DNA of 64,000 bases from Crambe crambe (lineage: Eukaryota > Porifera > Demospongiae > Poecilosclerida > Crambeidae). The translations under genes were made by a program, and so were the position numbers. Shown in pieces: positions 3,005-58,296 of the stretch. The notes beneath the pieces are model-generated. The model had not been told where the DNA came from. It did no database searches and was given only the letters and a program-made list of their open reading frames with translations. Within the stretch, counting starts at the first letter, position 1. Every line of letters begins with the position of its first letter. Where the stretch lies: the NCBI GenBank assembly GCA_963924555.1, contig OZ004588.1:7475205-7539204 (forward strand). Reading direction: 5' to 3'.

Positions 3005-3036
3005 GCCTGGTTTGCTGCGCAGAATAAATACTAACG

Positions 3037-6817: not shown

Positions 6818-6861
6818 ATTTATTGTGACTGCAATTTAGTTTTTCGCGCGTTTTCTCACTC

Positions 6862-6924: not shown

Positions 6925-6967
6925 GCGCGTGGCACATGGTTTGCTGAGCAGAATCAATATTAACGAG

Positions 6968-7474
6968 ATGTTCAGATTTACTCTACTGTGTGTCATAGTG
7001 GTAGCCGGCTTCCATGCTGCCAGAAGTGCAGCATGTATTTTAAGGCAAGAAAATATTATAACCGAATATTATGTTGAGGAGTTGGGTCGTTTCTGCAATC
7101 TTATGACAACGAACCCAGCCCTGGCGCCTATTCGAAAGTGTGAAGGTGGATGTGCGGGCTCTTTCAAGCACAAGCCTGCATTTAGCTCTTCTCTCTCTCA
7201 ATCACAAGTGGAAGAAATGGCAAAATCCCAGTGCGAGGTGGCTGGCAACTACGGCCTGAACTGTTGCATAGCGGCTTCTTCTACGCTACACAACGCTTCC
7301 TACTATCGTTTCAATTGTGGAGGAACTCTTTACAATGTGGGGCCCTATCTCGTCTCTATGCCTATTACATGCACATGCATGAATTGCTATCTACCAAGGT
7401 ACACCAGGACCACTCCCAGCACTATCGATCCTCAAAGATGTTTCAATACGCTTGTACGCTCTATCCGGGTTTAA
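6968..7474 (+). CDS. Cystine-knot hormone-like secreted protein, copy 2
   Basis: Single-exon gene of 168 aa, paralogue of 3037-3543. I chose the ATG at 6968 because it aligns with the copy-1 start, begins the signal peptide and lies about 45 bp after the TATA box; an in-frame ATG at 6929 would add 13 residues and sits very close to the TATA box. All 12 cysteines are kept: C-E-G-G-C, the C-C pair (LNCCIA) and C-T-C-M-N-C. Differences from copy 1 fall between the cysteines, as expected if the fold is constrained. The stop is 123 bp before the end of the convergent N-BAR/SH3 gene. Likely a secreted cystine-knot signalling protein; a receptor cannot be named. Confidence 0.7.
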   Translation: MFRFTLLCVIVVAGFHAARSAACILRQENIITEYYVEELGRFCNLMTTNPALAPIRKCEGGCAGSFKHKPAFSSSLSQSQVEEMAKSQCEVAGNYGLNCCIAASSTLHNASYYRFNCGGTLYNVGPYLVSMPITCTCMNCYLPRYTRTTPSTIDPQRCFNTLVRSIRV

Positions 7475-31304: not shown

Positions 31305-32799
31305 TTATATTTGGTTGATTTCTCCCATGATGTTGACAGTGCGATTTTTGTAGCGACGTGATATCTCCCCTGCCATCTGCATAAACAAAAGGAGTTCAAG
31401 AGAGTGTCCAGACTGTTGAATCACACGAGCACTTTGCTTATATACCTGAGATTGCAGCTTTTTTGTCCTTGTGACTAAGTGTGTGTGTTGAGGCTGGAGG
31501 TTGTTAAGGGAAGCAGTTGCCTGTTCCCTCTTAGCTGCAGCCTCCAGTGCTTGACTGGCTGCCCTGTTGGACAGTCTCAGCTCCTGCATCACTTTCTCTG
31601 ATAGACGCTGTTGGTACCTAAAAGATATGCAGAGAGAAACATTTCGGGAAAAAAAATTTTTTTTTCAGAACCACAAAATCAGTGCCATACTGACCTTTGT
31701 GAACCCTTGATGAGGAAGAGATGTTGTACTCTTTTATTAGTCATGTGATCCAGTACCTTAGTCACATGACCCAGCATATCAGACACACCATCACTACTGG
31801 ATTCCATCCCAATATCATCCAGACTCATCTGAAACAAAAAGTAATGTGGTACATGTGTATGATCTGAACGGCAAACACTTATATGTACATGTGACATGCA
31901 TGTAACATGCTGTGACCTGCATGATGCCTATCGCTGTGTTTCCAGAGGTAAGTTCATGTAATCTGTGAGAGAGAAACTCTTTGAGCTCCAGCAAGTCGTC
32001 CAGAAATTGATTACGAGTGGAGGAATTCTCCAGCAGTAACTGCAAATCACCCTCTGCAAAAATTAATGAGTGTATAAAAAATTATGAGCAATTAATACAG
32101 CCACTAACCATTGTAGTCTTTTTCTTGGGAATTGTCAGTTACACTTTCACCTGTAGTTCCTGTGTCTTTAAGCACCGCACCCTCCTCCTGGACTGCCACA
32201 CCCCCATCACCACTCTCACCTGTAGTTCCTACATCTTTAAGCACCACACCCTCCTCCTGGATTGCCACGCCTCCATCACCACTTTCTTCTAGAGAGATAC
32301 AGGAGAGGTCCACCTCCCCTTCGCCCCCTTCAAGAGTCAAGTCTCCAAAATCAATACCTCCAAAGTCAATTCCATCATCTTCCCTCGACACCACTCCAAC
32401 AGAATAACCCCAATCAATGCCCACCTCTTCCTCGGTCACATTCCTATTCTCGCCAATCACCCTATTCTCCTGTCTCTGTTCCACGACTGGTGCTTTACCA
32501 TATCTCCACTGGTACACAGTCACATTCCCATTCTTCAGAATGTAACTTAACATTGGCAGGAACTGATCCTCATTTATTCTCCTGCCATATGTCGTGATCA
32601 GAGTCATGTGATTATATCATCTGGATGCAGTCATGTGACCGGTCATGTGACTGACCTGCCTATGGAGTGGAGGAATGTTTGGTAGAAGGTGATGGCTGGG
32701 AGAGTTTTAGGAAGAACTTCCAGTACATCAGCAAACACTGCAGGCAATTCATTCACCAACTGACCAAGTTCCACGCTCACATTAATACCCTACAAACAT

Positions 32800-36800: not shown

Positions 36801-39800
36801 ATATATGTTAGTGGTGGTTTTAATTTGTAAGAGTTTGATAATTTCAGTATATCCTAATCGAGTAGCAATCTGTAGGGCTGTACGTCCATCATTATCTTGC
36901 AGGTCCATTTGAACACCTCTTTCTAGTAACAGTTTGGCTGTTTCAGCATGTCCATTCTTGCTAGCTTCCGTTAGAGCGGACTTTCCATATTTATCCTGTA
37001 GGTTAATTTGAGCACCACTTTCTACTAGCAGTTTGACTGCGTCAGTGTGCCCAGCCACACTTGCATACATCAGAGCAGAATGTCCATCATTATCTTGTAG
37101 GTCAATTTGAGCACCTCTTTCCAGTAACAGTTTGGCAGTTTCAGTATATCCATTCTTGCTTGCCACCATTAGAGCAGACCCTCCTTTGTTACTCTGCAGG
37201 TCGATTAGAGCACCTCTTTCCAGTAACAGTTTGGCTGTTTCAGTGTGGTCGTTATTGCTTGCATACATCAGAGAAGACCCTCCTTCATTATTCTGCAGGT
37301 CAATTTGAGCACCTCTTTGCAGTAACAGTTTGGCTGTTTCAGTATATCCGTTATCACTTGCTGACATTAGAGCAGACCATCCATTGTTACTCTGCAAGTC
37401 AATTTGAGCGCCTCTTTCCAGTAACAGTTTGGCTGTTTCAGTGTGTCCGTTATTGCTTGCATACATCAAAGCAGACCCTCCTTCATTATTCTGCAGGTCA
37501 ATTTGAGCACCTCTTTGCAGTAACAATTTGGCTGTTTCAGTATGTCCATTATTGCTTGCTAATATTAGAGCAGACCCTCCTTTTTTATCCTGCAGATCAA
37601 CTTGAGCACCTCTTTGTTGTAACAGTTTTACTGTTTCAATATGTCTGTTATAGCTTGCCCACATTAGAGCAGACCATCCATCGTTATTTTGTAAGTCAAT
37701 TTGAGTGCTTCTTTCCAGTAACATTTTGGCTGTTTCAGCATGTCCATTCTTGCTTGTCAATATAAGAGCAGACTCTCCTTCATTACTCTGCATGTCAATT
37801 TGAGCACCACTTTCTACTAACAGTTTGGCTGTTTCAGTATGTCCATTTTTGCTTGCCAATATTAGAGCAGGCAATCCATAGTTATTTTGCAGGTCAATTT
37901 GAGCACCTCTTTCCAGTAACAGTTTGACTGTTTCAGTATGTCCTTTCTTGCTAGCTTCTGTTAGAGCGGACATTCCATATTTATCCTGTAGGTTAATTTG
38001 AGCACCACTTTCTACTAACAGCTTAACTGTGTCAGTGTGCCCAGCAACACTTGCATACATCAGAGCAGAATGTCCAGCATCATCTTGTAGGTCAATTTGA
38101 GCACCTCTCTCTGATAGGAGTTTGGCAATTTCAGTTTTTCCGTTCTTGCTTGCCACCATTAGAGCAGACCCTCCTTTTTTACCCTGCAGGTCAATTCGAG
38201 CGCCTCTTTCCAGTAAAAGTTTGGTTGTTTCAGTATGTCCGTTATAGCTTGCCCACATTAGAGCAGATGTTCCTTCATTATTTAGCAGGTCAATTTTAGC
38301 ACCTCTTTGCAATAACATGCAGTTTGATTGTTTCAGTATGTCCGTTATCACTTGCCAACATTAGAGCAGACCATCCATTGTTACTCTGCAGGTCAATTTG
38401 AGTGCCTCTTTCCAGTAACAGTTTAGTTATTTCAGTGTGTCCGTTATTGCTTGCATACATCAAAGCAGACCCTCCTTCATTATTCTGCAGGTCAATTTGA
38501 GAACCACTTTCTACTAACAGTTTGGCTGTTTTACTATGTCCATTTTTACTTGCTAACATTAGAGCAGACAATCCATTTTTATCTTGGAGGTCAATTTGAG
38601 CGCCTCTTTCCAGTAACAGTTTGGCTGTTTCGGTATGACCATTCTTGCTAGCTTCTGTCAGAGTAGACATTCCATATTCATTCTGTAGGTTAATTTGAGC
38701 GCCACTTTCTACTAACAGCTTGGCTGCTTGAGTTTGCCCATCCACACTTGCATACATCAGAGCAGAACCTTTATGATTATCTTGTAGGTCAATTTGAGCA
38801 CCTCTTTCCAATAATAGTTTAACAGTGTCAGTATGTCCATTCTTGCTTGCAAACATTAGAGCAGACCCTCCTTTGTTACTCTGCAGGTCAATTTGAGCAC
38901 CTCTTTCCAGTAATAATTTGGCAGTTTCAGCGTGTCGGTTATTGATTGCATACATTAGAGCAGACCTTCCTTCATTATCTTGCAGGTCAATTTGAGCACC
39001 TCTTTCCAGTAATAGTCTGGCTGCTTCAATTTCTCCTTTAAAACTTGCATGCATTAGAGCTGACCATCCAATGTCATTTACTATATCTACTTGAGCATCT
39101 TTCAGAAGTTGCTTCATTCGTTCAATTTCTCCCTTTGAACTTGCTGTTAGTAGATCCATTGCCCCACTGTCACTCCCCACTTCACTGACATCACATAGAC
39201 CCTGCTCTTCAGTGGCATCTCTATGTTCATCATATAGACCCTGGTCTTCAGTGGCATCTCTATATTCTTCACTGACATCTCTATGTTCATCATCTAAACC
39301 CTGCTCTTCAGTACATGTTTTGTTTTTGAGGTTGAGCAGACTGGGTTTATCAAGTCTGGAGTAGCCATCATCAACTTCCTCAGTGAATTTCTTATCTTTA
39401 TCTGCTAATTTCTTATCTTGGTCTGCTAGGTATCCAATCCTAATACCCAATGACCTCAATTGCTCTCCACTTTTCTTTAGCATTCGAGTAACAGGTTTCA
39501 TTATATTCTTGATTGACTTAAGTCCATATTCTCCAACTCGAATATCCTCCATGACTGCGTAACACACCAATAAAAATTTCAACTGTTTTCAAAACATGAC
39601 CTTTGACCTGCATACACACCTACATGCATTATATGGCCCACACATGTATTAACTTTATCCATGATTATTATGGTATTGTATTGATTGGCCAGATACTTCT
39701 AGTATCACTCTCCCTTTTTAGCTATTTGAGAGTTTCTCGGATTTCTGGGTATGAAACTAAACATGTATACCTTGCTCCCAGATGAGTTGTTTGGGTTTCA

Positions 39801-41928
39801 ATCAGATTTGACACCCCATATCTGGTATTATGTCCATCCTGTGTCCAACTGAGCAGTGACAATAACTTTACATGGTTATTTCACTGAAGTCCTTCTTTTT
39901 CTTTAGTTACTGGTGAAGTGTTTTCCTGGGGCTCTGGCATATATGGACAACTTGGTCACGGCAACTTGAGGGACCGTTTCTCCCCACTAATGATAGGGGG
40001 CACCCTCAGGGGCATTGCAATCACACAAATAGCTTGCCATGAGTACCACTCCGCTGCTGTAGCAGGTATGTCTTCAAAACCACAAAAAAATCCCCCACCA
40101 AACCCCCCACTATAACATGATGTGTGGATATATGCACATGACTTGGTGTAGATGGTGGAGAACTGTACACATGGGGCAGAGCAGGTCCCCATCTGGGCTA
40201 TGACATCAAGACCACCAAACAGACGTCTCCTCGTCAGGTGGAGTTCCAAGGGGAACAGGTGAAGGTCATACAGGTGGCCTGTGGTGTGGCACACACCTTA
40301 GGTGAGTAAGGGAGCACCCATGTAATTACTGTCCCTTAATGGGATAAAATAGAGGTACAAACCCGTAACTTAAGGGATAGGGTAGTAGATGTACAATGGA
40401 CTGGAGGTACAACCCTGTAATTACTGTCACTTATTGTACTGTAGTGTGCTCTGAAGGAGGTAAGGTCTATTCTTTTGGTTCCAATAAGTTTGGTGAGTTG
40501 GGACTGGTGCACCCGACCCCTCTCTCCATGACCAAGCCCAGTCATGTGACTCCACTCACAGAGGTGGTGAAAGTGGCCTGTGGGAGACTTCATTCTGCTG
40601 CTATAGACAGTGAGTAGGAGATGTTAGGAATGTGTAATCTTTTGAAGTGAATTCTGCACCAAATCTCCAATTCCTTGGACTGACTCCACCTCTCTTTTCA
40701 AAGGTAATGGAAAGTTGTGGATGTGGGGGTGGGGTCAGCGGGGTCAGTTGGGACAGGCAGACAAACAAGACTTGAATTATCCCACCATCGTCGAAGGATT
40801 CAAGTAAGTATCAAAGTGTTAGCAATGCAATCTCTGTGAACAACTGGAGCGATCTGATAGGCAGAACTCCTTTAGCAACTTATAATGGACAGACTGAAAT
40901 GGCTAAGGCTTTTATAGAGCCACAAATAAAACAAGAAAAACCAAACACATTAAGTTTCCATAAGTCACTCCACATCCAAATAAGGAATTTATGTATCACA
41001 AGGTTAGTTGCTTATGTCTGTTATTCCTTTAGTAACTACCCTGTGACAGACATCAGCTGTGGTGATGCCCACAACTGTGCGTTGGTGATGAGTGGTGTGG
41101 TGTACAGTTGGGGGGACAACAGTGCTGGACAACTGGGCATCACTCACACCTACACTGAGATCACCAAACCCAGGCAGATAGCCACACCCACAGGACACAG
41201 CATTACACAAGTGGCGTGTGGTGCTGTTTTCTCTGCTGCACTCTCAGGTGAGTGGTATGGTTCAAATGAGTCAATGATAGGTGTACTGTTATTATCAGAA
41301 CATTAAATTTTCATTAGTATATTCATAGTGGTTATATGATGGTGATTGTTGATGCAGGTGTTGGACGTGTCTTCACATGGGGATATGGCTCCAGTGGACA
41401 ACTAGCCAACAACGAACTGAAAGGAAGGTATGACCATCCCCAGAACATCAATTACTGATCCTCTTGGAGTTGACATTTATAGAACATGTTAGAAGGAACC
41501 ATTCCATCAAAGCATGTCAGAGAAATGTCTATTATAATATGAGGATATCACATCATCATTATTATTGTAGGCAACTGCCGATGGAGGTGGATGCTCTGCT
41601 GGACAAACAGGTTCGGATGATAGCCTGTGGGGCGGAGCACATGGCATGCACAGTGGTGCACGGCTGGGTCCCTGACGAGGAGGCCAAGGAGTGCATGGCT
41701 TGCAAGAAAACATTCACCACCATCAGAAGGAGGGTGTGTCACTACTGGGCATTAATTAGAATCATTGTTACTGTATGTATTGTGATTGTATAGCACCACT
41801 GTCGTAAGTGTGGAGGTCTGTATTGTGGGAGTTGTACCACCAGAAGGTTCCCTCTGCTGGACAGAGGCTATTCTGACCCAGTCCGTGTCTGTGAACGTTG
41901 TTATGCTGTCCTCACCAAAAACTCGTGA
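33859..41928 (+). CDS. PH-RCC1-FYVE protein, PRAF-like
   Basis: Thirteen exons, 602 aa: 33859-33957, 34038-34202, 34256-34348, 34552-34690, 34760-34915, 39907-40065, 40152-40301, 40445-40609, 40704-40803, 41033-41247, 41358-41427, 41571-41733, 41794-41928. Residues 1-125 form a PH domain like that of plant PRAF proteins (ATLLKAGRNGK, LTWESKKG, RSLDIVCKDK, WTTGLQALIGGF). Then come about seven RCC1 blades, roughly one per exon (YTWGSGERGMLGH, FSWGSGIYGQLGH and so on). The C-terminus is a complete FYVE finger: WVPD, RRRHHCRKC, eight zinc cysteines and RVC. It probably binds PI3P on endosomes and may act on a small GTPase. Intron 5 is nearly 5 kb and contains an antisense gene. Exons 6-13 are copied downstream. 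Confidence 0.9.
35045..39552 (-). CDS. Gene A: ankyrin-ZU5-UPA-death protein, frameshifted
   Basis: Six exons: about 36767-39552, 36140-36661, 35989-36083, 35788-35931, 35488-35677, 35045-35439. The start may be MEDIRVGEYG at 39552 or an upstream in-frame ATG at 39582. A helical N-terminus of about 130 residues precedes some 23 ankyrin repeats. A ZU5 domain (GVGICVSIPEDSLSP, LRHFCLVKV), a UPA region (RGWNIIFDIEPAK, PPRFTIEFDPIQL) and a C-terminal death domain (YKWDDIGAFLGIS, CLREMITLWL) follow. Four extra bases (ATGC, 38317-38320) absent from gene B break the frame within ankyrin repeat 8; downstream repeats are open in the other frame. So it is a pseudogene, a recent null allele or an assembly error. 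It lies antisense inside intron 5 of the PH-RCC1-FYVE gene. Confidence 0.8.
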
Positions 41929-42254
41929 TAACATCCAAACCAGCCAACAAGTAATTTCAGCAATATGTGCTATTATAGCACACTTTGAATTAATGTTTGT
42001 GCTAAAGAAAGTATGTTTGTGGTGTGCTTCTTCATTATCAGTTTTCTGTATATTTTTGTACTTTGAAATTTTTTTGGATTGCATTGCTTAAGGAGTTGTC
42101 AGAGGTATTGATTGAGAGGGAGTCATGCATGGCTACCTAGCTAAAGTGAGGTATTCCACTAATTGTAGGGACTAAATAATCATTGGTACCACCCAGCGAG
42201 TCTATAGTATGCGATACATAGCCTTGTTCCCAGACCCTTGCCTGGGTACGAGGC

Positions 42255-42860
42255 TATGGATAGTTTTTGACTGGACGTGCCATTTGGAATCACAATGTCA
42301 TCTGTCCACTAGCAACACAAAAACAATCACAGCTGTTAGCAGCTACCTTTCCTGTCATCACCTAAAGACTTTGGGTAGTTTTCATCAAAGGTCATCTTAA
42401 GAGTTGAAGGTCATAAGTAATTTTGAATAAATTATTATGAGAGTAGAGACGGGAAATAGTGGAGTAATTGGAACTGGAGTGGATATGAATGTACATTATA
42501 GCTGGAGCAACCCTTCTCAAACAGAAGAAATGTAAGCAAAATCCAGACCCAAGTTTCCATAATGGTTAACTTCCAGTGTGGTAATGTGCTTATTCCATGT
42601 AGGGAAAGAACCATTTCCTTTGACCCCTGACCTCACCCGACTGACATGAAAATCAAAAAAGGTGCAGATCATAAAACAGAACATGCCAATTGCAAATGGA
42701 ACCAAGCCTGGTACCCCTTTTGATGACCTTTGACCTTAAAGTGTATGACAACTGTCAACCTACGTATTCCACCTCTTGCTGTTCATTTTCTCTGAGAAGG
42801 TTAGGGTGTGCAAAAACAAGTGAGAGTTTGAGGTGTGGACCACTGGGCTACAGGTAAACT

Positions 42861-42894
<34 letters not shown>

Positions 42895-43925
42895 ATAGAC
42901 CCCACTCTACTATAGCTGTTTGATACAGCATAACCATGTGATGACTCCCAATCAATGTACTGGAGATCGAATCTAAGATGTTTTGCATGCTAATACATAC
43001 ATAATTGTAAATTTTTGTTGACTGACACATACTGTTTGTTTATTTATTTGCTTATTTTGTTTGTTTATAGTACATGCTCCATACTCCTCATAATGTCCAC
43101 ATCAGCCACCCCTTCAAGTTTCTGTCTGTCTATGATGCTGCCCAGGCGTGCCCCTGAGTGAAGGGGTTTCCCTATGCCCCAGGCCCTGATTGAAGGGGCA
43201 TTAAATGTTTCCCCACACCCCGGGCCCTGATTGAATTGAAGGGGCGTTAAATGTTTTCCCTACATCCCAGGCAGCATTAAATGTTTCCCCCCACACCCTG
43301 ATTGAAGGGATGTTAACTCTTGAGCCTAATGTACCATCATTTAATAGGTACTCTCTGGCATCAGGCATAATGCTGGCAAAGTAGCAAGTAGAGTTCCTAT
43401 GCATGCAGTGCAGGCAATCCCTCAAAGGTCAAGATAACTATTAATGCTCCACTCATTATCAATCTATCCTTATAAAGTTATCACTCCTACTCCAGTGCAA
43501 CTGGCACTGACCAGTCATGTGTACAGTTTGTGACTTACTGACTCATAAAAATTAATGAACTTCTTGGCTTTGTTTAATGAACCAAATTTCAATATAACTT
43601 GAGCATAATGGGCATAATCATGAGCATAATTGGTAGCTTTTTCAGGAATTGCTAAAAGCATAATAGGTAGGGAAAAAAACAAACAACATGATTAGTCTGA
43701 AGCCTATGGGAGACCAATTGACTCATGAGACTTTGCATGATGTATGGATTTATGTTTCCTTGTATGTAGGTGCATGTGACCTTCACACACGGGGGGAGTG
43801 GGGAGGGAGGGATGTTGGGACACAAGGATGAGGACAATGAGAAACTCCCTCGTGTGGTGGAGTTTATTGGGTCGTGACATCGTCAGTGCAGCTTGTGGTG
43901 TTTCCCACACCATCACTTTCAAGTG
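42255..43925 (+). pseudogene. Decayed CDK5RAP3 5' end and PRAF-like exons 1-5, copy 2
   Basis: The stretch follows 33546-34920 in order. It starts with part of CDK5RAP3 exon 2 (TGGACGTGCCATTTGGAATC), then the shared promoter, PH exon 1 (GGAGTGGATATGAATGT), exon 2 (GGAAAGAACCATTTCC) and exon 3, a trace of exon 4 near 43180 and exon 5 at about 43770-43920. Deletions, frameshifts and lost splice sites disrupt all coding parts. It marks the left end of the second repeat unit of the locus. Confidence 0.75.
42863..42893. repeat. Run of 31 G
   Basis: Homopolymer of G right after the remnant of PH exon 3. The paralogous position in the next unit (51539-51564) has 26 G, so length differs between copies; sequencing error is possible. 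Confidence 0.85.
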
Positions 43926-44071: not shown

Positions 44072-47000
44072 TCAAGATTTGTATGTCTGTATAATTTTTG
44101 ATGCTGTTTTCTCATCGATGACTGACATGGCATCTGCCAGTGACACCCATGTAGGAGGGATGGTCACACGGTTCAGCCAGAGTGTAATCATTTCACGCAG
44201 GCAGGCTTGTACCCTGTCATTATTACATTTGATGGTGGAAAGTTGATTGGATGAAATACCCAGAAAGGCACCAATGTCGTCCCATTTGTATGCTACGGGG
44301 TACAGAATTTGGAATGTTTCACCGAGTGTTGGTTTGTCCAGGCTCAATGAGGGAATGTGACTAGAGTCTGATGGGAAATTAGTAGCGTTCATTGAAGAAG
44401 GTTGAGTATTAGCAGGCTCTGTGCCACTCTTAACAGTTTTAGGAGCTGCAATGATACAGTGGATCAATTTTTAATATTTTTTTCATGTGGACTTACTTGG
44501 GTCTTTGATATTGAAGAAACATTCCCTATCTAGTCCGTTCACTCCTAGTTTGATTGGGTTGGCACGTTCATTTGTGGGACCCTCTTGAATCGGGTCAAAT
44601 TCAATTGAAAATCTTGGAGGGTAATCAGGACACTCAGTAATATCTCGATGTAACTCTTCTGGGAGATGAATATTTCCTTTTAAAATCTGTCCAAAAAAAT
44701 ATCCTTATGTTCACTCAATGGATAGTAATGAACATGGATAATTCTATTCATGCAAGCATATGTCTATATGGACTGACCTTAGCAGGTTCTACATCAAAGA
44801 TGATGTTCCATCCTCTTCCATCAGCCACAGAAAGACTGACTTCATCTGATGTCAGCTGAGCAGTGACTGTACTCAATTTCTGGTCCTCTCCAATCTCCTT
44901 GGTAATCACACTGTCACAATGCTGCACACATGAAGCAACATACAAATCTAGTATTCTTGATGGGTCACAGTCCATGTGCATACCTTAGTGTATAGTTCCT
45001 GGTACAAACAGACAGAGAATACTGCCAGGTTTGGTGGCACACTTCTATAAAACCTTGCAGAGTAATAGAATGCATTCCCTGTAGAATAAGTACAATGACT
45101 TTAATGGAAGCACTAGTGTGCATGTCATACCTTTGGATTTCTTTGTTTCAGAAGATCCAGGAGATTCTGACCTTTTTCTTTTACCTACCTTTACTAAGCA
45201 AAAATGCCTCAAGGCGATTTCTCCCACCTGGTATCCAGGTTGGAATACCCCCTTGGCTTCCTTTATTTCCTTGAAGACATACACTGGACCAGACTCCCTG
45301 AATTCTGGAGTGGCACTGGCTGAGAGGAACACCATGTCCTCACAGTCCTCCTCACTCTCCAGACAAACATAGTGGTGGATCTCAACTCTTACATCCTTCT
45401 TAAATTCCACTCTTCTGCTGGGTTTGATCAGATAAGCTGGACTCGCTGACTCGCAGTCATCTGGTAGTTGGAATGGTCCAGTGAAGCAAGGGTAGATCTG
45501 TAGAGTAAGAGGGTCCTCCATAGGACTCAGTGAGTCTTCAGGGATGGACACACGTATGCCCACACCCTCAAGAACGACTTCTTTGCATGTAATGTCTTTT
45601 TGTGGGATTGTTTCCCAATCAATAATTATCCCTGGATACTTTGCACCATCTTTTTCTACAAGAGTAACATAACATTAATTACCCCACAAAGAAGTTTTCA
45701 TCCAAGTATTAATTGCATATTAGGGGTTCTGTTAGAGGTGTAGCTTAATATCTTATTACTTAATTCCCACAGACTCTGAGAATTTCCCTATAGGTACACG
45801 AGGATTTGTACTGTATAATGCTCACCTTTGGTCTTGCTTGTGGGCATTGCACCATATAATATAGTAGTTTTGAGTTTAGTTTGCAAAAGTTTGATAATTT
45901 CAGATGCAGTAGCAATCTGGAGGGCTGTAAGTCCATTGTTATTTTGCAGGTCAATTTGAGCGCCACTTTCCAGTAACAGTTTGGCTGTTTCAATATGTCC
46001 ATTATAACTTGCCAACATTAGAGCAGACCATCCATCGTTATTTTGCAGGTCAATTCGAGCTCCTCTTTCCAGTAACAGTTTGGCCGTTTCAATATGTCCC
46101 TTCTTGCTAGCTTCTGTTAGAGCGGAATTTCCATATTTATCCTGTAGGTTGATTTGAGCACCACTTTCTACTAGCAGTTTGACTGCATCAGTGTGCCCAG
46201 CCACACTTGCATACATCAGAGCAGAATGTCCATCATTATCTTGTAGGTCAATTTGAGCACTTCTTTCCAGTAACAGTTTGGCTGTTTCAGTATGTCCATT
46301 CTTGCTTGCGAACATTAGAGCAGACCCTCCTTTGTTACTCTGCAGGTCAATTTGAGCTCCTCTTTCCAGTAACAGTTTGGCCGTTTCAATATGTCCATTA
46401 TCACTTGCCAACATTAGAGCAGACACTCCATTGTTTTCTTGCAGGTCAATTTGAGTGCCTCTTTCCAGTAAAAGTTTGGTTGTTTCAGTATGTCCGTTAT
46501 AGCTTGCCCTCATTAGAGCAGATGTTCCTTCATTATTTAGCAGGTCAATTTTAGCACCTCTTTGCAATAACAGTTTGATTGTTTCAGTATGTCCGTTATC
46601 ACTTGCCAACATTAGAGCAGACCATCCATTGTTACTCTGCAGGTCAATTTGAGCGCCTCTTTCTAGTAACAGTTTGACTGTTTCAGTATGTCCATTCTTG
46701 CTAGCTTCTGTTAGAGCGGACTTTCCATATTTATCCTGTAGGTTAATTTGAGCACCACTTTCTACTAACAGCTTAACTGTGTCAGTGTGCCCAGCTACAC
46801 TTGCATACATCAGAGCAGAATGTCCAGCATCATCTTGTAGGTCAATTTGAGCACCTCTTTCTGATAGGAGTTTGGCAATTTCAGTTTTTCCGTTCTTGCT
46901 TGCCACCATTAGAGCAGACCCTCCTTTTTTATCCTGCAGGTCAATTCGAGCGCCTCTTTCCAGTAAAAGTTTGGTTGTTTCAGTATGTCCGTTATAGCTT

Positions 47001-48199
47001 GCCCACATTAGAGCAGATGTTCCTTCATTATTTAGCAGGTCAATTTTAGCACCTCTTTGCAGTAACAGTTTGGCTGTTTCAGTATGTCCGTTATCACTTG
47101 CCGACATTAGAGCAGACCATCCATTGTTACTCTGCAGGTCAATTTGAGCGCCTCTTTCTAATAACAGTTTGGCTATTTCAGTGTGTCCGTTATTGCTTGC
47201 ATACATCAAAGCAGACCCTCCTTCATTATTCTGCAGGTCAATTTGAGCACCTCTTTGCAGTAACAATTTGGCTATTTCAGTATGTCCATTATTGCTTGCT
47301 AACATTAGAGCAGACAATCCATTTTTATCTTGGAGGTCAATTTGAGCGCCTCTTTCCAGTAACAGTTTGGCTGTTTCAGTATGTCCATTATCACTTGCCC
47401 TCATTAGAGCAGACCATCCATCGTTATTTTGTAAGTCAATCTGAGTGCTTCTTTCCAGTAACATTTTGGCTGTTTCAGCATGTCCATTCTTGCTTGTCAA
47501 TATAAGAGCAGACTCTCCTTCATTACTCTGCATGTCAATTTGAGCACCACTTTCTACTAACAGTTTGGCTGTTTCAGTGTGTCGGTTATTGATTGCATAC
47601 ATTAGAGCAGACCTTCCTTCATTATCTTGCAGGTCAATTTGAGCACCTCTTTCCAGTAATAGTCTGGCTGCTTCAATTTCTCCTTTAAAACTTGCATGCA
47701 TTAGAGCTGACCATCCAATGTCATTTACTATATCTACTTGAGCATCTTTCAGAAGTTGCTTCATTCGTTCAATTTCTCCCTTTGAACTTGCTGTTAGTAG
47801 ATCCATTGCCCCACTGTCACTCCCCACTTCACTGACATCACATAGACCCTGCTCTTCAGTGGCATCTCTATGTTCATCATATAGACCCTGGTCTTCAGTG
47901 GCATCTCTATATTCTTCACTGACATCTCTATGTTCATCATCTAAACCCTGCTCTTCAGTACATGTTTTGTTTTTGAGGTTGAGCAGACTGGGTTTATCAA
48001 GTCTGGAGTAGCCATCATCAACTTCCTCAGTGAATTTCTTATCTTTATCTGCTAATTTCTTATCTTGGTCTGCTAGGTATCCAATCCTAATACCCAATGA
48101 CCTCAATTGCTCTCCACTTTTCTTTAGCATTCGAGTAACAGGTTTCATTAGATTCTTGATTGACTTAAGTCCATATTCTCCAACTCGAATATCCTCCAT
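44072..48199 (-). CDS. Gene B: ankyrin-ZU5-UPA-death protein
   Basis: Six exons: 45826-48199 (or from 48229), 45131-45655, 44984-45078, 44778-44921, 44497-44686, 44072-44445. The frame is fully open, 1243 aa if started at 48229. Layout: helical N-terminus (RMLKKSGEQLRSLGIRIGYL), about 19 ankyrin repeats of 33 residues, ZU5 with SIPEDSLSPMEDPLTLQIYP, UPA and a death domain. In UNC5, PIDD and ankyrins the ZU5-UPA-death module is an autoinhibited signalling unit; by analogy this is an intracellular sensor or adaptor, possibly in innate immunity or cell death. The N-terminal 200 residues are almost those of gene A, whereas the ZU5 exon through the death exon nearly equals gene C. The ZU5 exon begins EKDGAKYPG, unlike A. 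No membrane segment or signal peptide seen. Confidence 0.85.
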
Positions 48200-48546
48200 G
48201 ACTGCGTAACACACCAATAAAAATTTCAACTGTTTTCAAAACAGGACCTTTGACCTGCATACACACCTACATGCATTATATGACCCACACATGTATTAAC
48301 TTTATTCATGATTATTATGGTATTGTATTGATTGGCCAGATACTTCTAGTATCACTCTCCCTTTTTAGCTATTTGAGAGTTTCTAGGATTTCTGGGTATG
48401 ACATTTATACCTTGCTCCCAGATGAGTTGTTTGGGTTTCAATCAGATTTGACACCCCATATCTGGTATTATGTCCGTCCTGTGTCCAACTGAGCAGTGAC
48501 AATAACTTTACATGGTTATTTCACTGAAGTCCTTCTTTTTCTTTAG

Positions 48547-50591
48547 TTAATGGTGAAGTGTTTTCCTGGGGCTCTGGCATATATGGACAACTTGGTCATG
48601 GCAACTTGAGGGATCGTTTCTCCCCACTAATGATAGGGGGCACCCTCAGGGGCATTGCAATCACACAAATAGCTTGCCATGAGTACCACTCCGCTGCTGT
48701 AGCAGGTAGGTCTTCAAAACCACAAAAAAATCCCCCACCAAACCCCCCACTGTAACATGATGTGTGGATGTATGCACATGACTTGGTGTAGATGGTGGAG
48801 AACTGTACACATGGGGCAGAGCAGGTCCCCATCTGGGCTATGACATCAAGACCACCAAACAGACGTCTCCTCGTCAAGTAGAGTTCCAAGGGGAACAGGT
48901 GAAGGTCATACAGGTGGCCTGTGGTGTGGCACACACCTTAGGTGAGTAAGGGAGCACCCCTATAATTACTGTCCCTTAATGGGATAAAATAGAGGTACAA
49001 ACCCGTAACTTAAGGGATAGGGTAGTAGATGTACAATGGACTGGAGGTACAACCCTGTAATTACTGTCACTTATTGTACTGTAGTGTGCTCTGAAGGAGG
49101 TAAGGTCTATTCTTTTGGTTCCAATAAGTTTGGTGAGTTGGGACTGGTGCACCCGACCCCTCTCTCCATGACCAAGCCCAGTCATGTGACTCCACTCACA
49201 GAGGTGGTGAAAGTGGCCTGTGGGAGACTTCATTCTGCTGCTATAGACAGTGAGTAGGAGATGTTAGGAATGTGTAATCTTTTGAAGTGAATTCTGCACC
49301 AAATCTCCAATTCCTTGGACTGACTCCACCTCTCTTTTCACAGGTAATGGAAAGTTGTGGATGTGGGGGTGGGGTCAGCGGGGTCAGTTGTGACAGGCAG
49401 ACAAACAAGACTTGAATTATCCCACCATCGTCGAAGGATTCAAGTAAGTATCAAAGTGTTAGCAATGCAATCTCTGTGAACAACTGGAGCGATCTGATAG
49501 GCAGAACTCCTTTAGCAACTTATAATGGACAGACTGAAATGGCTAAGGCTTTTATAGAGCCACAAACAAAACAAGAAAAACCAGTTTGATACCAGTTCAC
49601 CATCATAGCTGGAGACAGGTGACATGACAATAGACATGAAAAATACATTAAGTTTCCATAAGTCACTCCACATCCAAATAAGGAATTTATGTATCACAAG
49701 GTTAGTTGCTTATGTCTGTTATTCCTTTAGTAACTACCCTGTGACAGACATCAGCTGTGGTGACGCCCACAACTGTGCGTTGGTGATGAGTGGTGTGGTG
49801 TACAGTTGGGGGGACAACAGTGCTGGACAACTGGGCATCACTCACACCTACACTGAGATCACCAAACCCAGGCAGATAGCCACACCCACAGGACACAGCA
49901 TCACACAAGTGGCATGTGGTGCTGTTTTCTCTGCTGCACTCTCAGGTGAGTGGTATGGTTCAAATGAGTCAATGATAGGTGTACTGTTATTATCAGAACA
50001 TTAAATTTTCATTAGTATATTCATAGTGGTTTATGATGGTGAATGCAGGTGTTGGACGTGTCTTCACATGGGGATATGGCTCCAGTGGACAATTAGCCAA
50101 CAACGAACTGAAAGGAAGGTATGACCATCCCCAGAACATCAATTACTGATGCGACATTTATAGAACATGTTAGAAGGTGTCAGAGAAATGTCTATTATAA
50201 TGTGAGGATATCACATCATCATCATTATTGTAGGCAACTGCCGATGGAGGTGGATGCTCTGCTGGACAAACAGGTTCGGATGATAGCCTGTGGGGCAGAG
50301 CACATGGCATGCACAGTGGTGCACGGCTGGGTCCCTGACGAGGAGGCCAAGGAGTGCATGGCTTGCAAGAAAACATTCACCACCATCAGAAGGAGGGTGT
50401 GTCACTACTGGGCATTAATTAGAATCATTGTTACTGTATGTATTGTGATTGTATAGCACCACTGTCGTAAGTGTGGAGGTCTGTATTGTGGGAGTTGTAC
50501 CACCAGAAGGTTCCCTCTGCTGGACAGAGGCTATTCTGACCCAGTCCGTGTCTGTGAACGTTGTTATGCTGTCCTCACCAAAAACTCGTGA
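48547..50591 (+). pseudogene. PRAF-like RCC1-FYVE exons 6-13, copy 2
   Basis: All eight 3' exons of the PH-RCC1-FYVE gene are repeated 8,640-8,663 bp downstream with very few differences (exon 6 at 48547-48705, FYVE end at 50589-50591). In exon 9 the Gly codon of GQLGQADK has become TGA (49391-49393). Together with the ruined 5' exons in this unit, this argues that copy 2 makes no full protein. It could still serve as alternative 3' exons of transcripts that read through from copy 1, ending early at the TGA. Confidence 0.8.
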
Positions 50592-50939
50592 TAACATCCA
50601 AACCAGCCAACAAGTAATTTCAGCAATATGTATGTGCTATAGCACACTTTGAATTAATGTTTGTGCTAAAGAAAGTATGTTTATGGTGTGCTTCTTCATT
50701 ATCAGTTTTCTTGTATATTTTTGTACTTTGAAATTTTTTTGGATTGCATTGCTTAAGGAGTTGTCAGAGGTATTGATTGAGAGGGAGTCATGCATGGCTA
50801 CCGAGCTAAAGTGAGGTATTCCGCTAATGAACCTTATACTGTAGGGACTAAATAATCATTGGTACCACCCAGCGAGTGTATAGTATGCGATACATAGCCT
50901 TGTTCCCAGACCCTTGCCTGGGTACGAGGCTACGGATAG

Positions 50940-52600
50940 TTTTTGACTGGACGTGCCATTTGGAATCACAATGTCATCTGTCCACTAGCAACACAAAAAC
51001 AATCACAGCTGTTAGCAGCTACCTTTCCTGTCATCACCTAAAGACTTTGGGTAGTTTTCATCAAAGGTCATCTTAAGAGTTGAAGGTCATAAGTAATTTT
51101 GAATAAATTATTATGAGAGTAGAGACGGGAAATAGTGGAGTAATTGGAACTGGAGTGGATATGAATGTACATTATAGCTGGAGCAACCCTTCTCAAACAG
51201 AAGAAATGTAAGCAAAATCCAGACCCAAGTTTCCATAATGGTTAACTTCCAGTGTGGTAATGTGCTTGTTTCATGTAGGGAAAGAACCATTTCCTTTGAC
51301 CCCTGACCTCACCCGACTGACATGAAAATCAAAAAAGGTGCAGATCATAAAACAGAACATGCCAATTGCAAATGGAACCAAGCCTGGTACCCCTTTTGAT
51401 GACCTTTGACCTTAAAGTGTATGACAACTGTCAACCTACGTATTCCACCTCTTGCTGTTCATTTTCTCTGAGAAGGTTAGGGTGTGCAAAAACAAGTGAG
51501 AGTTTGAGGTGTGGACCACTGGGCTACAGGTAAACTGAGGGGGGGGGGGGGGGGGGGGGGGGGGAATAGACCCCACTCTACTATAGCTGTTTGATACAGC
51601 ATAACCATGTGATGACTCCCAATCAATGTACTGGAGATCGAATCTAAGATGTTTTGCATGCTAATACATACATAATTGTAAATTTTTGTTGACTGACACA
51701 TACTGTTTGTTTATTTATTTGCTTATTTTGTTTGTTTATAGTACATGCTCCATACTCCTCATAATGTCCACATCAGCCACCCCTTCAAGTTTCTGTCTGT
51801 CTATGATGCTGCCCAGGCGTGCCCCTGAGTGAAGGGGTTTCCCTATGCCCCAGGCCCTGATTGAAGGGGCATTAAATGTTTCCCCACACCCCGGGCCCTG
51901 ATTGAATTGAAGGGGCGTTAAATGTTTTCCCTACATCCCAGGCAGCATTAAATGTTTCCCCCCACACCCTGATTGAAGGGATGTTAACTCTTGAGCCTAA
52001 TGTACCATCATTTAATAGGTACTCTCTGGCATCAGGCATAATGCTGGCAAAGTAGCAAGTAGAGTTCCTATGCATGCAGTGCAGGCAATCCCTCAAAGGT
52101 CAAGATAACTATTAATGCTCCACTCATTATCAATCTATCCTTATAAAGTTATCACTCCTACTCCAGTGCAACTGGCACTGACCAGTCATGTGTACAGTTT
52201 GTGACTTACTGACTCATAAAAATTAATGAACTTCTTGGCTTTGTTTAATGAACCAAATTTCAATATAACTTGAGCATAATGGGCATAATCATGAGCATAA
52301 TTGGTAGCTTTTTCAGGAATTGCTAAAAGCATAATAGGTAGGAAAAAAAAACAAACATGATTAGTCTGAAGCCTATGGGAGACCAATTGACTCATGAGAC
52401 TTTGCATGATGTATGGATTTATGTTTCCTTGTATGTAGGTGCATGTGACCTTCACACACGGGGGGAGTGGGGAGAGAGGGATGTTGGGACACAAGGATGA
52501 GGACAATGAGAAACTCCCTCGTGTGGTGGAGTTTATTGGGTCGTGACATCGTCAGTGCAGCTTGTGGTGTTTCCCACTACATCACTTTCAAGTGGTGAGT
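50940..52600 (+). pseudogene. Decayed CDK5RAP3 5' end and PRAF-like exons 1-5, copy 3
   Basis: Nearly identical to 42255-43925, sharing its deletions and frameshifts. The decay therefore happened before the duplication that made this copy. It has no coding potential. Confidence 0.75.
51539..51564. repeat. Run of 26 G
   Basis: Counterpart of the G run at 42863-42893 with five fewer G. Confidence 0.85.
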
Positions 52601-52740: not shown

Positions 52741-55700
52741 TCAAGATTTGTATGTCTGTATAATTTTTGACGCTGTTTTCTCATCGATGACTGACATGGC
52801 ATCTGCCAGTGACACCCATGTAGGAGGGATGGTCACACGGTTCAGCCAGAGTGTAATCATTTCACGCAGGCAGGCTTGTACCCGGTCATTATTACATTTG
52901 ATGGTGGAAAGTTGATTGGATGAAATACCCAGAAAGGCACCAATGTCGTCCCATTTGTATGCTACGGGGTACAGAATCTGGAATGTTTCACCAAGTGTTG
53001 GTTTGTCCAGGCTCAATGAGGGAATGTGACTAGAGTCTGATGGGAAATTAGTAGCGTTCATTGAAGAAGGTTGAGTATTAGCAGGCTCTGTGCCACTCTT
53101 AACAGTTTTAGGAGCTGCAATGATACAGTGGATCAATTTTTTATATTTTTTTCATGTGGACTTACTTGGGTCTTTGATATTGAAGAAACATTCCCTATCT
53201 AGTCCGTTCACTCCTAGTTTGATTGGGTTGGCACATTCATTTGTGGGACCCTCTTGAATCGGGTCAAATTCAATTGAAAATCTTGGAGGGTAATCAGGAC
53301 ACTCAGTAATATCTCGATGTAACTCTTCTGGGAGATGAATATTTCCTTTTAAAATCTGTCCAAAAAAATGTCCTTATGTTCACTCAATGGATAGTAATGA
53401 ATATGGATAATTCTATTCATATCCACACCTGCAAGCATATGTCTATATGGACTGACCTTAGCAGGTTCTACATCAAAGATGATGTTCCATCCTCTTCCAT
53501 CAGCCACAAAAAGACTGACTTCATCTGATGTCAGCTGAGCAGTGACTGTACTCAATTTCTGGTCCTCTCCAATCTCCTTGGTAATCACACTGTCACAATG
53601 CTGCACACATAAAGCAAACAAGTCTAGTATTCTTGATGGGTCACAGTCCATGTGCATACCTTAGTGTATAGTTCCTGGTACAAACAGACAGAGAATACTG
53701 CCAGGTTTGGTGGCACACTTCTATAAAACCTTGCAGAGTAATAGAATGCATTCCCTGTAGAATAAGCACAATGACTTTAATGGAAGCACTAGTGTGCATG
53801 TCATACCTTTGGATTTCTTTGTTTCAGAAGATTCAGGAGATTCTGACCTTTTTCTTTTACCTACCTTTACTAAGCAAAAATGCCTCAAGGCGATTTCTCC
53901 CACCTGGTATCCAGGTTGGAATACCCCCTTGGCCTCCTTTATTTCCTTGAAGACATACACTGGACCAGACTCCCTGAATTCTGGAGTGGCACTGGCTGAG
54001 AGGAACACCATGTCATCACAGTCCTCCTCACTCTCCAGACAAACATAGTGGTGGATCTCAACTCTTACATCCTTCTTAAATTCCACTCTTCTGCTGGGTT
54101 TGATCATATAAGCTGGACTCGCTGACTCGCAGTCATCTGGTAGTTGGAAAGGTCCAGTGAAGCAAGGGTAGATCTGTAGAGTAAGAGGGTCCTCCATGGG
54201 ACTCAGTGAGTCTTCAGGGATGGACACACGTATGCCCACACCCTCAAGAACGACTTCTTTGCATGTAATGTCTTTTTGTGGGATTGTTTCCCAATCAATA
54301 ATTATCCCTGGATACTTTGCACCATCTTTTTCTACAAGAGTAACATAACATTAATTACCCCACAAAGAAGTTTTCATCCAAGTATAATTGCATATTAGGG
54401 GTTCTGTTAGAGGTGTAGCTTAATATCTTATTACTTAATTCCCACAGACTCTGAGAATTTCCCTATAGGTACACGAGGATTTGTACTGTATAATGCTCAC
54501 CTTTGGTCTTGCTTGTGGGCATTGCACCATATAATATAGTAGTTTTGAGTTTAGTTTGCAAAAGTTTGATAATTTCAGATGCAGTAGCAATCTGGAGGGC
54601 TGTAAGTCCATTGTTATTTTGCAGGTCAATTTGAGCGCCTCTTTCCAGTAACAGTTTGGCTGTTTCAGTATGTCCATTATCACTTGCCGACATTAGAGCA
54701 GACCCTCCATTGTTATCTTGCAGGTCAATTTGAGCGCCTCTTTCCAGTAACAGTTTGGCTGTTTCAGTATGTCCATTATCACTTGCCAACATTAGAGCAG
54801 ACCCTCCATTGTTATCTTGCAGGTCAATTTGAGCGCCTCTTTCCAGTAACAGTTTGGCTGTTTCAGTATGTCCATTATCACTTGCCCTCATTAGAGCAGA
54901 CACTCCATCGTTATCTTGCAGGTCAATTTGAGCGCCTCTTTCCAGTAACAGTTTGGCTGTTTCAGTATGTCCATTATCACTTGCCGACATTAGAGCAGAC
55001 CCTCCATTGTTATCTTGCAGGTCAATTTGAGCGCCTCTTTCCAGTAACAGTTTGGCTGTTTCAGTATGTCCATTATCACTTGCCGACATTAGAGCAGACC
55101 CTCCATCGTTATCTTGCAGGTCAATTTGAGCGCCTCTTTCCAGTAACAGTTTGGCTGTTTCAGTATGTCCATTATTACTTGCCCACATTAGAGCAGACCA
55201 TCCATCGTTATCTTGCAGGTCAATTTGAGCGCCTCTTTCCAGTAACAGTTTGGCTGTTTCAGTATGTCCATTATTACTTGCCAACATTAGAGCAGACACT
55301 CCATTGTTATCTTGCAGGTCAATTTGAGCGCCTCTTTCCAGTAACAGTTTGGCTGTTTCAGTATGTCCATTATCACTTGCCCTCATTAGAGCAGACCCTC
55401 CATTGTTATCTTGCAGGTCAATTTGAGCGCCTCTTTCCAGTAACAGTTTGGCTGTTTCAGTATGTCCATTATTACTTGCCCACATTAGAGCAGACCATCC
55501 ATTGTTATCTTGCAGGTCAATTTGAGCGCCTCTTTCCAGTAACAGTTTGGCTGTTTCAGTATGTCCATTATCACTTGCCGACATTAGAGCAGACCCTCCA
55601 TTGTTATCTTGCAGGTCAATTTGAGCGCCTCTTTCCAGTAACAGTTTGGCTGTTTCAGTATGTCCATTATCACTTGCCGACATTAGAGCAGACCCTCCAT

Positions 55701-58296
55701 TGTTATCTTGCAGGTCAATTTGAGCGCCTCTTTCCAGTAACAGTTTGGCTGTTTCAGTATGTCCATTATTACTTGCCCACATTAGAGCAGACCATCCATC
55801 GTTATCTTGCAGGTCAATTTGAGCGCCTCTTTCCAGTAACAGTTTGGCTGTTTCAGTATGTCCATTATCACTTGCCAACATTAGAGCAGACCATCCATCG
55901 TTATCTTGCAGGTCAATTTGAGCGCCTCTTTCCAGTAACAGTTTGGCTGTTTCAGTATGTCCATTATTACTTGCCAACATTAGAGCAGACACTCCATTGT
56001 TATCTTGCAGGTCAATTTGAGCGCCTCTTTCCAGTAACAGTTTGGCTGTTTCAGTATGTCCATTATCACTTGCCGACATTAGAGCAGACCCTCCATTGTT
56101 ATCTTGCAGGTCAATTTGAGCGCCTCTTTCCAGTAACAGTTTGGCTGTTTCAGTATGTCCATTATTACTTGCCCACATTAGAGCAGACCATCCATCGTTA
56201 TCTTGCAGGTCAATTTGAGCGCCTCTTTCCAGTAACAGTTTGGCTGTTTCAGTATGTCCATTATTACTTGCCAACATTAGAGCAGACACTCCATTGTTAT
56301 CTTGCAGGTCAATTTGAGCGCCTCTTTCCAGTAACAGTTTGGCTGTTTCAGTATGTCCATTATCACTTGCCCTCATTAGAGCAGACCCTCCATTGTTATC
56401 TTGCAGGTCAATTTGAGCGCCTCTTTCCAGTAACAGTTTGGCTGTTTCAGTATGTCCATTATTACTTGCCCACATTAGAGCAGACCATCCATTGTTATCT
56501 TGCAGGTCAATTTGAGCGCCTCTTTCCAGTAACAGTTTGGCTGTTTCAGTATGTCCATTATTACTTGCACCCATTAGAGCAGACACTCCATCGTTATTTT
56601 GCAGGTCAATTTGAGCGCCTCTTTCCAGTAACAGTTTGGCTGTTTCAGTATGTCCATTATCACTTGCCGACATTAGAGCAGACCCTCCATTGTTATCTTG
56701 CAGGTCAATTTGAGCGCCTCTTTCCAGTAACAGTTTGGCTGTTTCAGTATGTCCATTATTACTTGCCCACATTAGAGCAGACCATCCATCGTTATCTTGC
56801 AGGTCAATTTGAGCGCCTCTTTCCAGTAACAGTTTGGCTGTTTCAGTATGTCCATTATTACTTGCCAACATTAGAGCAGACACTCCATTGTTATCTTGCA
56901 GGTCAATTTGAGCGCCTCTTTCCAGTAACAGTTTGGCTGTTTCAGTATGTCCATTATCACTTGCCCTCATTAGAGCAGACCCTCCATTGTTATCTTGCAG
57001 GTCAATTTGAGCGCCTCTTTCCAGTAACAGTTTGGCTGTTTCAGTATGTCCATTATTACTTGCCCACATTAGAGCAGACCATCCATTGTTATCTTGCAGG
57101 TCAATTTGAGCGCCTCTTTCCAGTAACAGTTTGGCTGTTTCAGTATGTCCATTATTACTTGCACCCATTAGAGCAGACACTCCATCGTTATTTTGCAGGT
57201 CAATTTGAGCGCCTCTTTCCAGTAACAGTTTGGCTGTTTCAGTATGTCCATTATTACTTGCACCCATTAGAGCAGACACTCCATTGTTATTTTGCAGGTC
57301 AATTTGAGCGCCTCTTTCCAGTAACAGTTCGGCTGTTTCAGTATGTCCATTATCACTTGCACCCATTAGAGCAGACACTCCATTGTTATTTTGCAGGTCA
57401 ATTTGAGCGCCTCTTTCCAGTAACAGTTTGGCTGTTTCAGTATGTCCATTATCACTTGCCCTCATTAGAGCAGACACTCCATTGTTATCTTGCAGGTCAA
57501 TTTGAGCGCCTCTTTCCAGTAACAGTTTGGCTGTTTCAGTATGTCCATTATCACTTGCCCTCATTAGAGCAGACACTCCATTGTTATCTTGCAGGTCAAT
57601 TTGAGCGCCTCTTTCCAGTAACAGTTTGGCTGTTTCAGTATGTCCATTATTACTTGCACTCATTAGAGCAGACACTCCATTGTTATCTTGCAGGTCAATT
57701 TGAGCGCCTCTTTCCAGTAACAGTTTGGCTGTTTCAGTATGTCCATTATTACTTGCACTCATTAGAGCAGACACTCCATTGTTATCTTGCAGGTCAATTT
57801 GAGCGCCTCTTTCCAGTAACAGTTTGACTGCTTCAATTTTTCCTTTAAAACTTGCATGCATTAGAGCTGACCATCCAATGTTATTTATCATATCCACTTG
57901 AGCGTGTTTCAAAAGTTGCTTCATTAGTTCAATTTCTCCCTTTGAACTTGCTGTTAATAGATCCATTGCCCCACTGTCACTCCCCACCTGACTCACCTCA
58001 GTATGTTCATCATATAAACCCTGCTCTTCAATAGGTTCATCATCTAGACCCTGCTTTTCAGTGTCTGTTTTGTTTTTGAGGTTGAGCAGACTTGAAAGTC
58101 TGGAGTAGCCATCATCAACTTTCTCAGTGAATTTCTTATCTTTGTCTGCTAATTTCTTATCTCTGTCTGCTAGGTATCCAATCCTAATACCCAATGACCT
58201 CAATTTCTTTCCACTTTTCTTTAGCATTCGAGTAACAGGTTTCATTCGATTCTTGATTGACTTAAGTCCATATTCTCCAACTCTAATATCCTCCAT
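52741..58296 (-). CDS. Gene C: ankyrin-ZU5-UPA-death protein with 34 ankyrin repeats
   Basis: Six exons: 54501-58296 (or from 58326), 53807-54331, 53660-53754, 53457-53600, 53166-53355, 52741-53114; 1717 aa if started at 58326. The N-terminus resembles A and B but has diverged more (KSGKKLRSLGIRIGYL, shorter acidic linker). A capping ankyrin repeat (NNIGWSALMHAS) is followed by 32 almost identical 33-residue repeats and a C-terminal cap (NNNGLTALQIATASE). ZU5, UPA and the death domain (KWDDIGAFLGISSNQL) follow. The array probably folds into a long superhelix offering one extended binding surface; the death domain would signal by recruiting other death-fold proteins. The gene is intact and its ankyrin exon alone is 3.8 kb. 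It lies in the third unit of the locus, where the PH-RCC1-FYVE remnant is almost gone. Confidence 0.88.
54619..57786 (-). repeat. Array of 32 ankyrin units of 99 bp
   Basis: Exactly 3168 bp, 32 units of 99 bp, all in frame in gene C. The framework is D/N-N-N/D-G-x-S-A-L-M-x-A-S-N/D-N-G-H followed by TETAKLLLERGAQIDLQ. Position 5 is Val (GTG), Trp (TGG) or Gly (GGG). Position 10 is Ser, Arg, Trp, Leu or Gly (AGT/TCG, AGG, TGG, TTG, GGT). Positions 1, 3 and 13 are Asp or Asn. I saw one other coding change (Lys to Glu in unit 5) and no silent change in the framework. Units 7-12 and 13-18 are the same six-unit series. Confidence 0.92.

Follow-up and report, generated by a model that had tools for sequence, protein, structure and literature searches.

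How can a run of tandem ankyrin units stay identical in most of its codons while varying at a handful of others? The question is raised by gene C, which lies on a 64,000-nucleotide stretch of the genome of the sponge Crambe crambe (contig OZ004588.1, positions 7,475,205 to 7,539,204), hereafter the window; positions given below are those of the window unless a contig is named. Our answer, which we consider probable but well short of settled, is that gene C encodes a rapidly recombining ankyrin recognition receptor, probably self-processing, in which a groove-diversified solenoid is mounted on a signalling end made up of a ZU5-like part, probably a UPA domain, and a Death domain.

The units were cut every 99 bp from the reverse-strand frame, from 57786 down to 54619, which gives exactly 32, and Tandem Repeats Finder gives the same array (54607-57884, period 99, 33.1 copies). 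The initial annotation had described a frozen framework with variation at codons 1, 3, 5, 10 and 13 and a single Lys-to-Glu change, and the aligned units bear this out: 27 of the 33 codons are without any difference, silent or not, across all 32 units, so that the silent framework differences that were sought are absent from the array as assembled. The variants are GAT (28 units) and AAT (4) at codon 1; AAT (23) and GAT (9) at codon 3; GTG (13), GGG (11) and TGG (8) at codon 5; TGG (7), TCG (7), AGG (6), TTG (6), GGT (4) and AGT (2) at codon 10; AAT (16) and GAT (16) at codon 13; and AAA (31) and GAA (1) at codon 21, the last being K21E in unit 5. The statement that every difference changes the amino acid went too far, since serine is specified by two of the codon-10 variants, TCG and AGT. 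Mean pairwise identity of the units is 0.964 for DNA and 0.918 for protein (protein minimum 0.818). Their 14 DNA types follow one another in the order AABBCDEFGHIJEFGHIJHKIJJFGHILJMNJ, and stretches of the array recur exactly, one of 656 bp offset by six units and others of 464 bp offset by 10 and by 16. Owing to the few types and these exact multi-unit repeats, counts over 32 units inflate the number of independent events; the minimum number of nucleotide steps is 11, ten at the five codons and one elsewhere. When 11 random changes to a unit were simulated, at least 10 fell in any five codons in 0.3% of cases, none was silent in 3%, and both were true in 0.011%. Of the 24 listed pairs of sites in different codons, 16 show all four allele combinations, and therefore the variants were either reshuffled between units or recurrent.

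A near-identical 3.2-kb array might itself be an assembly artefact, with the wrong number or order of units because the reads were too short for it, and short-read assemblies are indeed unreliable on such arrays (PMC12222747). The window, however, lies inside a 7.66-Mb contig (C11:7475205-7539204) of a 143-Mb assembly in 119 contigs, and a wrong number or order of units would not restrict the variation to five codons, the same ones that lead in the pooled arrays of other genes described below. We regard this explanation as the least probable of those considered.

Beyond the array, gene C has an intact frame of six exons encoding 1707 residues, and all five of its introns are GT-AG (Table 1). 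The Death domain (PF00531) scores 26.7 bits against a cut-off of 22.6, and 23.5 bits in the spliced protein. ZU5 is recognisable at the level of the family, with 15 of 16 aligned family exons matching at E up to 1 (best E 3e-5). The spliced C-terminal part and the ZU5 alignment were each searched by sequence against the PDB, and neither returned a ZU5-UPA structure; the best match of the C-terminal part was a stretch of THO complex subunit 1 over the Death region (E 0.0072). The N-terminal segment of exon 1 has no Pfam match, and no NACHT or NB-ARC domain was found in the open reading frame of the array, the spliced C-terminal 442 residues or the N-terminal 141 residues. A frameshift in the UPA region proved to be only apparent: comparison with the neighbouring genes A and B places introns with GT-AG ends there. 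Gene C encodes a ZU5-Death protein whose ankyrin part is diversified. The ZU5-UPA-death module proposed in the initial annotation stands for its Death domain and, at family level, for ZU5; its UPA part was not detected with Pfam.

We take unit positions 1-13, which hold all five variable codons, to correspond to the finger loop and the first helix of the ankyrin fold. In ankyrin solenoids these elements line the groove on the concave side (PMC4358367), and the ankyrin-G residues mutated as binding-site residues, F131/F164, I267/L300 and L366/F399/L432 (PMC4358367), fall on unit position 5 in our own mapping, for which we relied on how the aligned residues agree in identity, in order and in their 33-residue spacing. 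That the variable codons face the groove is therefore backed by fold knowledge and by the mapping of position 5, and the five variable residues would contact the ligand. Ankyrin-1 and -2 are the best PDB matches by sequence, as might be expected if the solenoid were a multivalent scaffold that engages numerous copies of a single partner, or a single extended peptide, with unit differences tuning the individual sites and not building a repertoire; vertebrate ankyrins do bind varied targets via combinations of sites in one groove (PMC4358367). Yet the groove of ankyrins is highly conserved, from worm to human (PMC4358367), whereas the codons expected from the fold to form it are the most variable ones in gene C and also in 19 other arrays pooled. 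The expanded family and the signs of unequal crossover also speak against a scaffold, which we consider improbable.

The five codons were picked from gene C and then tested in other arrays of the family. Proportions of nonsynonymous and synonymous differences (pN and pS) were obtained for 16 other arrays from the window and from fetched paralogs, and nucleotide steps were counted in 19 other arrays, 16 of them outside the window. In the 16 arrays the five codons reach pN 0.394 and pS 0.333, compared with 0.123 and 0.266 for the other 28 codons; a pN as high is found in 2 of 237336 five-codon sets, the chosen set included. For nonsynonymous steps pooled over the 19 arrays, the chosen set alone, one of 237336, reaches its count. 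Array by array, the five codons with the highest pN include all five chosen ones in 1 of 16 cases, four in 7, three in 5 and two in 3. The three array pieces of genes A and B give pN 0.532 and pS 0.296 at the five codons and 0.125 and 0.363 at the others, and the six arrays with more than 85% identity give 0.287 and 0.191 at the five codons and 0.074 and 0.113 elsewhere. Variation confined so tightly to five codons, and reshuffled among units or recurrent, might also come from targeted hypermutation or templated conversion acting on these codons independently of selection, and the synonymous rate there is 1.7 times that elsewhere in the six arrays of more than 85% identity. The nonsynonymous rate, however, is 3.9 times that elsewhere in the same arrays, there is little or no silent rise either in the 16 arrays or in A and B, and the gene C codons that lie between the five carry no co-transferred differences. 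A mechanism of this kind seems very unlikely.

Is the excess at the five codons due to selection, or were these codons merely left free to change? Under the strongest competing explanation, which combines recent amplification and relaxed constraint, a few founder units were multiplied in blocks to build the array, the fold tolerates changes in the groove, and there is no selection for diversity. The exact internal repeats of 656 and 464 bp and the presence of only 14 unit types agree with this. Counted by parsimony on the unit trees of the 19 other arrays, the five codons show 837 nonsynonymous (N) and 126 synonymous (S) steps with 166 S expected (P 2.6e-4), and the other codons 1441 N and 898 S with 557 S expected (P 1.7e-55). 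Taken singly, codons 3 (P 1e-4) and 10 (P 5e-4) are nominally significant, and codons 1, 5 and 13 are not. Recombination casts doubt on trees built from repeat units, as was pointed out for Prdm9 (PMC3890296), and tree-free counts were therefore added. Outside the five codons these give 915 N and 600 S in the 19 arrays with 362 S expected (P 6e-42), and both kinds of count show clear purifying selection on these remaining codons. When N at the five codons is set against all synonymous steps of the unit, the six other arrays with more than 0.82 identity show 114 N where 78 are expected (P 1.6e-6), or 88 if transition bias is left out (P 6e-4); all 19 arrays show 462 where 365 are expected (P 1.3e-9), or 415 without transition bias (P 0.0023). 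Gene C, taken post hoc, has 10 nonsynonymous steps at the five codons against 3.0 expected, with no synonymous step in the unit. The codon frequencies in gene C are also more even than neutral by the Ewens test at codons 5 (P 0.017), 10 (P 0.003) and 13 (P 0.017), with no departure at codon 1 (P 0.53), at codon 3 (P 0.26) or for whole units (P 0.21), although block duplication weakens this test. The excess in the six arrays, the gene C count and the evenness of its codon frequencies argue against amplification under relaxed constraint alone.

Besides the doubt about repeat-unit trees, several points weigh against diversifying selection and against the receptor interpretation as a whole. A strict tree-free count made within the five codons shows no N excess in the 19 arrays (462 N and 130 S, 116 S expected), no silent deficit in the 16 arrays outside the window (116 S, 100 expected) and no significant departure in gene C (10 N and no S, 1.9 S expected, P 0.12). 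With no silent deficit within the five codons, neutral change there by relaxed constraint together with homogenisation stays compatible with the data. Set against all synonymous steps, older arrays taken singly show little or no excess; examples are C6a (P 0.34), C10 (P 0.45) and C15:2531481 (P 0.67). Because the five codons were picked from gene C, its own P values are post hoc, and all arrays are paralogs within one genome and not independent draws. Codon 14, invariant in gene C, stands slightly above codon 1 in the 16 other arrays (mean pN 0.281 vs 0.267), and pS at the five codons is somewhat raised in the six arrays of more than 85% identity. Designed ankyrin repeat proteins (DARPins) are randomised at positions 3, 5 and 13, and the overlap with these positions covers three of the six variable codons of gene C and is not significant (P 0.09), so this part of the groove argument in the initial annotation was not supported. 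At the other end of the protein, the Pfam match to ZU5 in gene C is weak (E 0.013-0.054, below the cut-off), and a Pfam search of the spliced protein, taken up to E 10, shows no UPA.

On balance, the five codons are likely, though not proven, to be under diversifying selection, and it is clearest in the most homogeneous arrays; these counts suggest that selection plays a part in the family, and we infer positive selection, not mere relaxation, at the five residues. Amplification under relaxed constraint alone is the less likely account, though one to be taken seriously. The initial annotation had offered recent amplification, with selection playing no part, as its alternative: the exact block repeats uphold the amplification, and the nonsynonymous excess in the tree-based and second tree-free counts tells against the absence of selection, so that its two alternatives, selection and recent amplification, act together.

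The receptor interpretation also draws on the end of the ZU5-like domain. The ZU5 exon closes with L-R-H-F-C in all 16 aligned family exons. In a set of 36, made up of these 16 and 20 mostly more divergent exons, the motif column reads H-F-C in 25, H-F-S in 2, N-F-S in 1, E-F-S in 1 and something else in 7 (T-P-C in 1, H-L-G in 1, and S-L or S-F followed by another residue in 5). PIDD is cleaved between the Phe and Ser of H-F-S, and CARD8 between the Phe and Ser of S-F-S, where its ZU5 ends on the C-terminal side; among autoproteolytic proteins in general, such reactions are started by Ser, Thr or Cys, and UNC5b has Leu where CARD8 has Phe (all PMC3210808). By analogy, the family may use a cysteine version of ZU5 self-cleavage, between the Phe and Cys of H-F-C. 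S-L replaces H-F at the motif in L042, an exon sampled from a dense cluster of ZU5-exon matches on C3 (G000:C3:7485137-7825623), and in similar exons L043 (C12) and L041 (C5); matches in the C3 cluster start only at about residue 28 of the query. The genome holds at least 150 ZU5-exon matches (150 of 291 candidates were scored), some of which are pieces of one exon. One relative, at G000:C6:8867383-8880081, has 127 ankyrin units in one frame of 4443 residues, with a ZU5 exon about 0.4 kb downstream. In the sponge Amphimedon, Death-like/TRADD-N proteins are reported to be greatly expanded, and many of them carry ankyrin repeats (PMC8195603).

Gene C is one of three tandem related genes on the minus strand, with A at about 39.6-34.7 kb and B at about 48.2-43.7 kb, and the 3' parts of all three can be aligned with one another, starting where the ZU5 exon ends and including the Death exon. 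The spacers A-B and B-C differ at 42 of 4109 aligned bases (98.98% identical), and the outer flanks align at only about 59%, with a local exception of about 0.6 kb at 78% between the spacer and the 5' flank of C. The 5' exon segment of gene B differs from A at 1 of 512 positions and from C at 36 of 449, and its ZU5 exon differs from C at 6 of 525 positions and from A at 33 of 505. Gene B thus looks like the product of an unequal crossover, with its 5' end from A and its 3' end from C, and a crossover between the array of A and the array of C would account for the layout of gene B and of the spacers. Some A and B units are identical and others have their nearest partner at 13 or more differences in 99, and single C-like units occur in B; by these comparisons, turnover has been faster in the arrays than in the sequence beside them. 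One unit of A, of 103 bp in place of 99 (38283-38385), breaks the frame of its array into two open reading frames, as in a pseudogene or through a sequence error. The A-B spacer also carries an RCC1-repeat exon (40776-41306, E 1.4e-18), and both duplicated spacers contain a G run, of 31 at 42863-42893 and of 26 at 51539-51564.

Table 1. Features of gene C and its two neighbours, in window coordinates.
Feature	Position	Strand	Remark
Gene C as a whole	58.3 to 52.7 kb	minus	
Gene C exon 1	54501..58296	minus	ATG start, N-terminal segment, one divergent ankyrin unit, array, capping unit
Ankyrin array in gene C exon 1	54619..57786	minus	32 near-identical 99-bp units, 14 DNA types
Gene C exon 2: ZU5-like domain	53807..54331	minus	Pfam match about 54027-54254, E 0.016, below cut-off
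H-F-C motif, end of gene C ZU5-like domain	53874..53882	minus	
Gene C exon 3: UPA position	53660..53754	minus	no Pfam detection
Gene C exon 4: UPA position	53457..53600	minus	no Pfam detection
Gene C exon 5: UPA position	53166..53355	minus	no Pfam detection
Gene C exon 6: Death domain	52741..53114	minus	PF00531, match about 52753-52977
Gene A ankyrin array	36897..39078	minus	21 units in register and one 103-bp unit
Gene B ankyrin array	45944..47725	minus	18 divergent units, mean DNA identity 0.78; same five codons highest pN
Spacer A-B, first duplication copy	39591..43748	.	
Spacer B-C, second duplication copy	48238..52418	.	

Two other features of the window were recorded: a pair of tandem paralogous small cysteine-rich, apparently secreted proteins at 3028-3543 and 6776-7474, with no Pfam match, and a CDK5RAP3-like exon at 32104-32616 (E 8.5e-13).

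The closest parallels that we found are of four kinds. Fungal NOD-like receptors (NLRs) with ANK, TPR or WD repeats of high internal conservation, such as Podospora HNWD and the PNP_UDP/NACHT/ANK genes, carry near-identical repeats through concerted evolution (Dyrka et al. 2014, PMC4986451); one fungal ANK gene has five positively selected positions, and its selected and polymorphic sites are concave with one exception (PMC4986451). Gene C likewise combines near-identical repeats with five variable positions, and its mean protein identity of 0.918 lies above the threshold of at least 85% over at least 100 residues used for the fungal genes (PMC4986451). Positive selection at groove positions, a feature of these fungal NLRs, reaches significance here when steps are counted on trees and when they are set tree-free against all silent steps, but not when the count stays within the five codons. 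Gene C differs from them in having no detected NACHT or NB-ARC domain and a ZU5-Death end instead, and in metazoans the fraction of such highly conserved repeats is 0.8% (PMC4986451). PRDM9 contains a coding minisatellite in which nonsynonymous variation at contact residues escapes homogenisation (PMC3890296). The gene C array, too, is a coding minisatellite with homogenised units, but these are ankyrin units and not zinc fingers, the fold, the ligand (DNA for PRDM9) and the function differ, and the gene belongs to a large family. By analogy, gene C may work like the fungal receptors of high internal conservation and like PRDM9 arrays while being a member of neither group. With the autoproteolytic ZU5-UPA and death-fold proteins PIDD, CARD8 and NLRP1 it shares the order of ZU5 and then Death, and, as regards PIDD and CARD8, its H-F-C sits where 4 of the 36 family exons carry an F-S motif; it departs from all three in its N-terminal ankyrin array, in Cys for Ser and in a UPA without profile detection. 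Like ANK1-3, it has an ankyrin solenoid followed by ZU5-like and Death domains. Canonical ankyrins have two ZU5 domains, whereas one ZU5-like exon was found in gene C.

From these results, a mechanism may be proposed for the receptor. Duplication of units and blocks, together with exchange between them, would keep the solenoid framework identical, while selection for new or multiple binding specificities would diversify residues 1, 3, 5, 10 and 13. The ZU5-like part would cut itself between the Phe and Cys of H-F-C, leaving a UPA-Death fragment restrained by the ankyrin half, as in PIDD, CARD8 and NLRP1, and the output would presumably be cell death or immune signalling. A bolder version, which we put forward only tentatively and consider possible rather than probable, sees in the family an animal ankyrin repertoire: the array would serve both as recognition surface and as recombination substrate, exchange would swap arrays between signalling modules and shuffle contact residues, and the self-cut at H-F-C would arm UPA-Death, making the family a counterpart of the fungal incompatibility NLRs without an NTPase. 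Among the matches listed in open-licence PMC papers, no animal ankyrin array with diversification at contact codons was found. If the receptor interpretation is correct, gene C would belong to an animal family of death-linked receptors diversified by the logic of fungal NLRs and PRDM9, in which the framework is homogenised, the contacts are diversified and recombination proceeds through the array. It would predict a cysteine form of the PIDD/NLRP1 self-cleavage switch and offer a natural source of DARPin-like ankyrin arrays, and the family would become a candidate for allorecognition or microbe recognition in animals without antibodies.

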